Shown in pieces: positions 20,022 through 21,054 of a stretch of 64,000 bases of DNA. How positions within the stretch are numbered: position 1 is the stretch's first letter; each line of letters begins with the position of its first letter. The position numbers were made by a program, and so were the translations under genes. This DNA is from Chthoniobacterales bacterium (lineage in GTDB: Bacteria; Verrucomicrobiota; Verrucomicrobiia; Chthoniobacterales; UBA10450): contig DATENU010000019.1 of assembly GCA_035274845.1 (NCBI GenBank), positions 1-64,000 on the forward strand. Direction: 5' to 3'. The notes beneath the pieces were generated by a model. It worked only from the letters and a program-made list of their open reading frames with translations, ran no database searches and had not been told where the DNA came from.

Positions 20022-20137
20022 ATTGTTGAACGTCGCGAAGTTTGCTCCCGGTTGTAAAGCAAATTGTCCGCGTGAGCGGTCAAGCGTGGCGGCTACGGCG
20101 CGTCGCGCAGCGCTGGGGCATTGCCGTAGCGGCACCG

Positions 20138-20295
20138 GCGCGATTCACCGTAGCCTGGGGCATCGCCCTGTTTAGCCGAAACAAGCGGCCAACTCGGGTT
20201 CTGCCGCGCCAAAGGCGCAGGCTCACCCAAAGCCTGGGGCAACGCCCCAGGATTGCCACATACAGGAAACGATAAGCGCTGAAAGCGCGATTCAC
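20138..20295. repeat. REP array, left of RAYT
   Basis: Contains GCGCGATTCACCGTAGCCTGG (split across 20138-20160), GCCTGGGGCAACGCCCCAGG (20232-20251), CGCCAAAGGCG, and at the inner end AAGCGCTGAAAGCGCG + ATTCAC (20274-20295). The same blocks occur in inverse order and orientation to the right of the transposase gene. Confidence 0.85.
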
Positions 20296-20308
20296 CATCG
20301 AGCGGGGG

Positions 20309-20773
20309 TTAATCCCACACATAACGCTCATCAAAACCGACGCCGTGCTTTCGCAGCAGATTTCGATACTCCTCCTGAAACGTGCGCGTCCGATGATGCA
20401 TTTCCTGGTCGTCGACATACCGCAAAACCGCCTGAAGCTGACTCGGACTGACCGAAAACGCGCCGAAGCCGCGTTGCCAGAAAAAACCTCGATACCGAGG
20501 ATCAAGCGTTTTGATCCATTTCGAAGACACCTTCTTTATCGTTTCAATCAGTTCCGCCTGCGACACGGTTCGCGGCAATGTCGTCACGATATGGACATGG
20601 TCCGACACCCCGCCGGCGTGCACGAATGCCGCCCCGAGGTCGCGGCAAATTGTCGCCAAATAGCCATGCATCTGCCCTCGCGCCTTCGTATCCAACCAGG
20701 GTTCGCGATCTTTCGTGCTGAAAATGACGTGAAGAATAACGTTACTGAGGGACTGGGGCATGGCGTGAATCAT
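20309..20773 (-). CDS. REP-associated tyrosine transposase (RAYT, Y1/IS200-like)
   Basis: 154 residues. HUH motif in GGVSDHVHIVTTLPRT (about residues 55-63) and candidate catalytic Tyr in LRYVDDQEMHHRTRTFQEEYRNLLRKHG (about residue 118). MPQSLSNVILHVIFSTKDREPWL and RGFFWQRGFGAFSVS are family landmarks. Such single-strand transposases cut and move REP hairpins. Here the gene sits exactly between inverted copies of candidate REPs. It appears intact, with the start at 20773. Confidence 0.93.
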   Translation of the reverse strand: MIHAMPQSLSNVILHVIFSTKDREPWLDTKARGQMHGYLATICRDLGAAFVHAGGVSDHVHIVTTLPRTVSQAELIETIKKVSSKWIKTLDPRYRGFFWQRGFGAFSVSPSQLQAVLRYVDDQEMHHRTRTFQEEYRNLLRKHGVGFDERYVWD

Positions 20774-20792
20774 GCCAACGTCCGCGCCGGAT

Positions 20793-21025
20793 GTGAATCG
20801 CGCTTTCAGCGCTAATAATTGTGTTTCGAATCAAATCCTGGGGCGTTGCCCCAGGCTACGGTGAATCGCGCCGTTGGCGCTAAGTTTGAGCGACCAGCGC
20901 CCCATTCATCCGAAACAAGCGCCCACCCTCGCTATTCCGCGCCAAAGGCGCAGCCTCACTTAAAGCCTGGGGCAACGCCCTAGGATTTGCGTGAGACAAT
21001 TTCATTAGCCCTGAAAGCGCGACTC
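20793..21025. repeat. REP array, right of RAYT
   Basis: Begins with GTGAATCGCGCTTTCAGCGC + TAA (20793-20815), the reverse complement of the left inner end. It continues with CCTGGGGC-GTT-GCCCCAGG (20840-20858), CTACGGTGAATCGCGCC, CGCCAAAGGCG, a degenerate GCCTGGGGCAACGCCCTAGG (20966-20985) and CTGAAAGCGCGACTCAC (21009-21025). Confidence 0.85.
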
Positions 21026-21054
21026 ACACGCGGCGCGGAAGAGGCGCGAAACGG

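Follow-up and report, generated by a model that had tools for sequence, protein, structure and literature searches.

The transposase gene and its flanking arms

The 64,000-nt stretch of DNA analysed here (hereafter the window) contains a Y1 (HUH) transposase gene on the minus strand at 20309..20773, recognized as an ORF of 154 aa with a Pfam Y1_Tnp score of 83 bits. The gene occurs as a single copy in its own genome (4.54 Mb, 24 contigs) and lies within a candidate unit of 675 bp (20206..20880), arranged as inverted arm, gene and arm, which is delineated by its inverted repeats and by the recurrence of this layout in related genomes. The left arm, downstream of the gene, occupies positions 20206..20294 on the minus strand and comprises hairpin H1 (20206-20218), H2 (20233-20251), the H3 stem-loop (20276-20288) and a TGAATC foot extending to 20294. 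The right arm, upstream of the gene, is found on the plus strand at 20794..20880, with its TGAATC foot at 20794-20799, H3 at 20800-20812, H2 at 20837-20855 and H1 at 20868-20880. Both were detected with an arm pattern which, read outward from the gene, consists of the TGAATC foot, H3 (GCGCTTTCAGCGC), about 23 nt, H2 (CCTGGGGCGTTGCCCCAGG), CT, TGA and H1 (GCGCCTTTGGCGC), with H2 and H1 separated by about 14 nt and a total length of about 88 nt. Two of the hairpins, H3 and H1, are small and of the GCGC type, each immediately preceded on its 5' side by a TGA foot, that of H1 standing about 3 nt ahead of the hairpin; the palindrome enclosed by the two, H2, is perfect. The GTAG foot was absent from the arms of the window, the foot of H3 and H1 being TGA. 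When DNA folding was compared with shuffled sequences in four cases, the left and right arms reached z-scores of -3.6 and -3.25, respectively, and one of the four folds, that of an arm at another locus (L049), was no better than shuffles (z -0.95).

The earlier note, made from the letters of the window alone, had described a Y1 gene centred in inverted palindromic blocks with a 22-bp inverted inner end. Both observations hold: the arms at 20206-20294 and 20794-20880 mirror each other, and their inner ends (20272-20295 versus 20793-20816) are 96% complementary over 24 nt. The CCTGGGGC palindromes at 20233-20251 and 20837-20855 are embedded in 24-nt arms that are 100% complementary, and the CTACGGTGAATCGCGCC block is 93% complementary between 20127-20168 and 20841-20882. 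The latter inverted repeat reveals a fourth-arm remnant at 20138..20168 on the minus strand, reduced to the H1/H2 part. A third arm was identified by repeat comparison and BLAST at 20939..21026 on the minus strand, where it had been missed by the strict arm pattern; it carries a third CCTGGGGC palindrome at 20966-20984. This third arm repeats the left arm in the same orientation (84% over 67 nt) and forms a tail-to-tail (type B) pair with the right arm. The mirror-image arrays proposed earlier are thus real for the two arms enclosing the gene and do not extend to the third arm, which is oriented like the left one, so that CGCCAAAGGCG at 20206 and 20939 is a direct and not an inverted pair. The true counterpart of the H1 hairpin at 20206-20218 is GCGCCGTTGGCGC at 20868-20880.

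Classification of the transposase

The predicted protein displays the motifs DHVH, FWQRG and YVDDQEMHH. It passes the cut-off of the NCBIfam profile transpos_IS200 (64 bits versus 55) and falls below that of REP_Tyr_transpos (NF047646; 24.1 bits versus 80). Likewise, 28 of 28 relatives match transpos_IS200, and 10 of the 28 touch REP_Tyr_transpos at E<=0.001. Searches of PDB with a profile of these 28 relatives retrieved the ISDra2 and IS608 TnpA structures, whereas a phmmer search with the single window protein gave zero matches. An AlphaFold model of the protein (pLDDT 79, pTM 0.73) had its best fold matches in ISDra2, a transposase of S. tokodaii and IS608; TnpA-REP (4er8) came at rank 30.

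Judged by its Y---Q--HH, DH[IV]H and WQ motifs, its size and its low copy number, the protein fits TnpA-Y1 subclass 1.2. In the part of PMC6006769 available, this subclass is characterized by DH[IV]H, WQ and Y---Q--HH motifs, about 148 aa and a low copy number, with hosts mostly in Cyanobacteria and Bacteroidetes; its members are described there as generally without terminal secondary structures and as 'no' for REP. The arms flanking the gene, each with three hairpins, depart from this lack of terminal structures, but since the wording is 'generally', they widen the description of the subclass and do not exclude membership. The Y---Q--HH signature is present at 54 of 59 related loci, the remaining five being interrupted in the frame read. 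At several loci in related genomes (L072, L073, L075, L079, L080 and L160), the transposase gene is frame-interrupted and the arms are intact.

Gene-less arms elsewhere in the genome

Searches of the 4.54-Mb genome revealed 45 sites matching CCTGGGGCNNNGCCCCAGG with <=2 mismatches, versus 0 for the reversed control pattern, and BLAST analysis with positions 20775-21040 yielded 73 HSPs at 23 loci. All 22 non-window loci were examined and hold 38 further arms, organized as 12 type A pairs, 4 type B pairs and 6 single arms, one of which (L064) is imperfect; three of the 43 arms matched by regular expression were dropped, as they had 6-7 errors and lay over true arms on the other strand, leaving 40. 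Type A pairs have the order H1-H2-H3, 0-34 nt, H3-H2-H1, with a short spacer in the place taken by the gene in the window, and type B pairs have the opposite arrangement.

All 22 elements are clear of ORFs with coding-like codon use, compared with 15% of random intervals at the same loci that are gene-free, in a test based on a heuristic gene model (ORFs and codon use) rather than on curated annotation. Eight of the 22 loci lie between convergent genes, and many copies sit just after genes, with no fixed orientation of the arms relative to them. Within this genome, hairpins are 85-94% identical between arms, whereas the H3-H2 spacer is 35% identical, close to the 32% obtained with shuffled letters; conservation ends sharply, on the outside at H1 and on the inside at the TGA of H3. 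With spacers near the shuffled level and hairpins retained, these copies are old rather than recent, and may be relics maintained by the host.

As inverted intergenic pairs present in many copies and linked to a Y1 gene, the arms have the layout of REPINs. The search for the hairpin blocks suggested in the earlier note thus recovered them as intergenic pairs at other loci, and the finding that would have spoken against it, namely blocks missing from the rest of the genome and from gene-carrying relatives, is contradicted by copies throughout the genome and by relatives that carry the unit. Its reading of a REP-type repeat stands as far as intergenic palindrome pairs are concerned, but has to be amended to a three-hairpin arm of about 88 nt with no GTAG foot. 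Several arm families seem to coexist: at L115 (G004:C138), an arm pair of similar layout has a different H2 (CCGGTGGT/ACCACCGG), which points to families occurring side by side in one genome or genus. In the window's own genome, a match to the Rfam family Acido-Lenti-1 (RF01687) at L116 (G000:C22:1664-1709) scores 42.3 bits, over the cut-off, with an H2 (CCCAGCGC/GCGCTGGG) that differs from that of the window's repeat family; a single subclass-1.2 gene was found in this genome.

The home locus and its counterparts in related genomes

The unit is surrounded by genes that we take, from reading their ORFs, to be tyrS, a SYLF-like gene and tadA, together with a gene of 208 aa. These neighbours are syntenic in 7 of 7 genomes of the same genus, six of which (G001-G005 and G007) have no arm between the syntenic genes. 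The seventh, G006, carries a gene-less type A pair at the home locus; because the spacers of this pair are unlike those of the window unit, the two occupants need not share an origin. A related gene of G006 (67-68% by segment, frame-interrupted) is found at another locus, also between arms.

Matches to the 4-kb home region within the genus numbered 67 in the window's own genome (G000), 78 in G004, 90 in G006, 8 in G005, 3 each in G003, G007 and G002, and 2 in G001. As all of those in G001, G002, G003 and G007 correspond to the syntenic flanks, no arm was found in these four genomes. Abundance of the arm family thus goes with the presence of a close gene (G000 and G006) or with a gene that was possibly missed (G004, whose assembly is 88% complete in 290 contigs); the other genomes of the genus have few copies or none.

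At another site (L063), arms of the window type were absent from 6 of 6 relatives (L222-L227). This site is the junction of two convergent genes, where each species looked at has a different palindromic filler, the window's arm pair in one and hairpin-rich sequence of another kind in the rest, and for this reason it illustrates lineage-specific content rather than a clean empty site. With relatives only about 70-78% identical, no exact insertion junction or clean target duplication was readable at the home locus or at L063. G011 has two gene units, on different contigs, and both arms were present at all 13 gene loci examined in close relatives.

Conservation of the arms around related transposase genes

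An inverted-repeat score of at least 20 was obtained at 44 of 59 subclass-1.2 loci, compared with 5 of 24 loci of other Y1 genes. When a strict H2 with similar stems was required on each side of the gene, 22 of the 59 loci were retained, versus 0/24 controls and 0/1180 shuffles. In an alignment of 26 H2-H1 segments (24 distinct), 99% of the cells were paired and 8 of the 13 pairs had changed on both sides, with a covariation score of 0.419, compared with 0.168 after shuffling and no more than 0.120 when partners were slid. Because the Rfam model had served to find most of the segments, this test is biased towards the structure. Pairing in the H2 and H1 stems is preserved through compensatory changes. 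Stems differ by 3% between the two ends of one element (9 comparisons) and by 24% between the ends of different elements (91 comparisons), and arm-stem and protein distances showed no significant correlation in a Mantel test (r 0.17, p 0.098, n=14).

Similar elements occur outside this phylum. The best plasmid match of the window protein (42% identity) is encoded by the Persicobacter plasmid CP012861.1 (Bacteroidota), with the Y motif YIQNQKFHH. The gene is flanked by inverted arms whose stems are quite different (H2 CGATGGGT/ACCCATCG), and this H2 occurs 14 times on the plasmid, versus once for the control. Four gene-less pairs, 143-145 nt apart, have outer flanks largely common with the gene-bearing form, from which they differ in the content between the two H3 hairpins. 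Since the outer flanks are shared, this pattern points to a duplicated region that exists in gene-bearing and gene-less versions and is not proof of separate insertions. In two more genes from Bacteroidota, of Lentimicrobiaceae (L078) and Bernardetia (L232; 33% protein identity), no inverted arms were found beside the gene.

Similarity to the Rfam family Acido-Lenti-1

The earlier note had made no link to Rfam. At 20837..20881 on the plus strand, a match to Acido-Lenti-1 (RF01687) covers the H2-H1 half of the right arm with 33.6 bits (E 1.6e-5), under the gathering score of 37, and the third arm reaches 20.4 bits at 20938-20984. Another copy of the window's own arm family (G000:C23:15039-15083) scores 40.6 bits, over the cut-off, as does one of two matches on the Persicobacter plasmid (39.4 and 35.7 bits), and scores beside the gene in relatives are as high as 44.6 bits. 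At E<=0.001, RF01687 was detected in 28 of 58 relative genomes and in none of 14 named controls.

Within 150 nt of the gene, 37 RF01687 matches were identified at 24 of the 54 subclass-1.2 loci scanned, on both sides of the gene at 12 of these 24, and 33 of the 37 point outward; none was found around other Y1 genes at 20 loci scanned. The 54 loci do not comprise L068-L070 (the same places as L082-L084), L077, L107-L110 and L213-L221, and L078 was scanned separately; the control covers 20 of 30 loci, without L163, L182 and L185-L192.

The association extends to whole genomes. Among 387 genomes of the phylum, 51 have both the gene (E<=1e-30) and RF01687 (E<=1e-5), 16 the gene only, 37 RF01687 only and 283 neither, an odds ratio of 24 (p 8e-26) that is uncorrected for shared ancestry and genome size. 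At these thresholds, 37 of the 88 genomes with RF01687 are without the gene, a profile search recovering intact or interrupted genes in only 5 of the 37, and 16 of the 67 gene-bearing genomes are without RF01687. When G055 was included (38 gene-less genomes with RF01687), the profile search gave 6 subclass-1.2 matches, that of G055 being only a fragment. G055 (L113, L140 and L247) has 59 RF01687 matches at E<=0.001, many of equal score, as after a recent burst. Its subclass-1.2 gene either was lost or lies in an assembly gap, only the fragment having been found. A Pfam search of G055 identified a Y1 gene with a stop (L163), with no arms visible by eye beside it.

Other Rfam models also gave matches on paired arms. 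Those to microRNA families, ncS16 and the like are below their gathering scores and were taken as artefacts of long hairpins; the microRNA models MIR537, mir-2765 and MIR898, from plants or animals, are among those scoring below cut-off (L047, L060, L061, L086 and L097). Long DNA inverted repeats mimic miRNA precursors.

Acido-Lenti-1 is catalogued by Rfam as a gene/sRNA of unknown function. In Table 1 of Weinberg 2010 (PMC2864571), as far as available, it is rated 'y' as a probable RNA that is not cis-regulatory. According to the sections available of a 2026 paper (PMC13298647), little is known of this motif, which adjoins protease genes in Tannerella; a role in gene regulation is suggested, and mobile elements were sought there and none found. 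Under the present reading, the Tannerella motif may itself be the trace of a mobile element. No publication linking Acido-Lenti-1 or RF01687 with a transposase was found in the literature covered, from which subscription papers are mostly absent.

Interpretation

Taken together, these data make it quite probable that the unit consists of a transposase gene with its own recognition ends, that the intergenic copies are REPIN-like gene-less miniatures, and that Acido-Lenti-1 is the corresponding family of DNA substrates. The Acido-Lenti-1 'RNA' is most likely DNA recognized by subclass-1.2 Y1 transposases. From the position of the arms, the specificity of the association, co-occurrence and covariation, we infer that the protein acts on the arms. 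HUH/Tyr transposases such as IS608, ISDra2 and TnpA-REP bind hairpins of single-stranded DNA, and their tyrosine cuts where the foot directs (PMC8266576, as available). By analogy, the arm hairpins would fold when the DNA is single-stranded, for instance on the lagging-strand template; the transposase would bind the folded hairpins and cut next to the TGA foot of H3 and H1, the candidate cut guide, moving or maintaining the gene unit and, in trans, the miniatures. As a palindromic DNA hairpin with covarying positions resembles a structured RNA, Acido-Lenti-1 would have been taken for an RNA.

A bolder version of this scenario, which can only be put forward tentatively, is that Acido-Lenti-1 is the DNA end of subclass-1.2 elements in several phyla and that each arm is in itself a minimal IS200-like single-strand transposon of ~88 nt. 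Two TGA-footed hairpins on the same strand (H3 and H1) would then enclose the H2 palindrome, and single arms, pairs (head-to-head or tail-to-tail) and the gene unit would all be assemblies of arms. This proposal stems from the single arms found at 6 of 22 loci, from the occurrence of both pair types with unrelated spacers, and from conservation whose limits are the TGA of H3 on one side and H1 on the other.

Alternatively, the arms may belong to a domesticated REP-like system in which transposition has ceased and the gene and hairpins are kept by the host, with functions, for example, in DNA topology, transcription termination or protection of mRNA 3' ends; we regard this as possible, if somewhat doubtful. 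Hairpins kept with scrambled spacers favour selection and hence a host role, in line with the single-copy gene and with the location of the other copies, 22 of 22 in intergenic regions against a baseline of 15% and eight between convergent genes. Variation in what occupies the home locus speaks for movement, with a gene unit and a gene-less pair alternating at one place between congeners and a related gene sitting elsewhere in G006, and the two gene units of G011, on different contigs, and the near-identical Persicobacter miniatures suggest movement or duplication. Domestication is compatible with the reading of a transposase with its own DNA ends, which covers both moving and maintained forms.

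It appears improbable that Acido-Lenti-1 is a true sRNA or a regulatory RNA element which the transposase unit merely took up, or beside which it inserted. Its Rfam listing as gene/sRNA, the 'y' rating and the regulation proposed for adjoining protease genes (PMC2864571 and PMC13298647, both in the parts available) speak for such an RNA, as do stems that covary as those of an RNA would and the many copies located directly after genes. However, a free-standing RNA accounts poorly for a motif placed on both sides of the gene, inverted and outward-pointing in 33 of 37 matches, in two phyla, and for its being found, among the Y1 loci scanned, only around subclass 1.2 (0/20 other Y1 loci). Nor does it explain why the ends of one element match each other (3% stem difference) better than those of different elements (24%), or why the arms have no fixed orientation to genes.

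It is very unlikely that the unit is simply an active insertion sequence of the IS200/IS605 type (subclass 1.1) that has left many dead copies, despite a protein that passes the transpos_IS200 cut-off and whose nearest solved structures include the IS608 and ISDra2 TnpA. Elements of the IS200/IS605 type have short subterminal hairpins, whereas the unit has inverted arms at both ends, and the protein displays the Y---Q--HH signature of subclass 1.2 instead of Y[IV]ENQ. One gene copy stands against 40-odd arms with no near-identical copies, and on this single copy in its own genome an active multi-copy IS was rejected. Finally, a class-2 RAYT (TnpA-REP) with canonical GTAG REPs, as implied by the RAYT label of the earlier note, can be dismissed: palindromic intergenic inverted pairs together with a single-copy Y1 gene do recall RAYT-REPIN systems, but motif and profile tests contradict this assignment (YVDDQEMHH instead of Y-x-x-x-NP; REP_Tyr_transpos at 24 bits against a cut-off of 80), and the foot is TGA, not GTAG.

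Comparison with known systems and significance

If this reading is correct, RF01687 annotations point not to RNA genes but to DNA that is mobile or REP-like, and enzyme and substrate form a pair directly testable by binding and cleavage assays. A transposase subclass whose members, in the available text of PMC6006769, generally lack terminal structures would thereby gain a likely substrate, and an Rfam 'sRNA' that was described in 2010 and continues to be considered a candidate regulatory RNA (PMC13298647, 2026, in part) would gain a likely identity. Kept hairpins with scrambled spacers also offer a clean case for studying what maintains REP-like repeats in genomes.

Compared with subclass 1.2 as published (PMC6006769, in part), the window protein has the same DHVH, WQ and Y---Q--HH motifs, a size of about 150 aa, a low copy number and a class 1 fold, but here it goes with repeat families and with elaborate inverted ends of three hairpins each, for the most part in Verrucomicrobiota. 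The portions available on TnpA-Y1 class 3 in the same source describe a Q-type Y motif related to class 1, atypical structures flanking the gene and high copy numbers, in Acidobacteria and Planctomycetes, which bring that class close to the window unit; it differs by four residues before Q, no HH, a CnGA foot and a protein of 178 aa. TIRYTs and TIRtrons, with examples from Acidobacteria, also combine Y1 genes with long flanking inverted repeats, some forming moderately abundant families, but they feature a GGGGWSAS motif, with no link to Acido-Lenti-1 in the accessible part of their description (PMC3733652). Of 26 TIRYTs, 20 fall in subclass 2.1 and the other six in 2.2 and 2.5 (PMC6006769, same portions). 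Membership in this group was rejected, as the window unit has inverted arms but a class 1 motif rather than one of subclasses 2.1, 2.2 or 2.5.

RAYT/REPIN systems of class 2 TnpA-REP (PMC3116915, PMC8049555 and PMC8266576, each as far as available) share with the window unit a single-copy Y1 gene flanked by palindromes and gene-less intergenic inverted pairs elsewhere. The window unit differs from them in its transposase class, its three-hairpin arm of ~88 nt, its TGA instead of GTAG foot, and the position of the gene between the two halves of a pair. With Acido-Lenti-1, as described in the part of PMC2864571 available, it shares a 46-nt motif of two hairpins, laid out like the H2-H1 half of the arm; unlike the catalogued sRNA, this motif is here the outer half of a transposase-unit end, H3 being an additional hairpin towards the gene. 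The window unit is thus probably a variant within the known REPIN/REPtron systems, combined with the probable re-identification of an Rfam RNA family.
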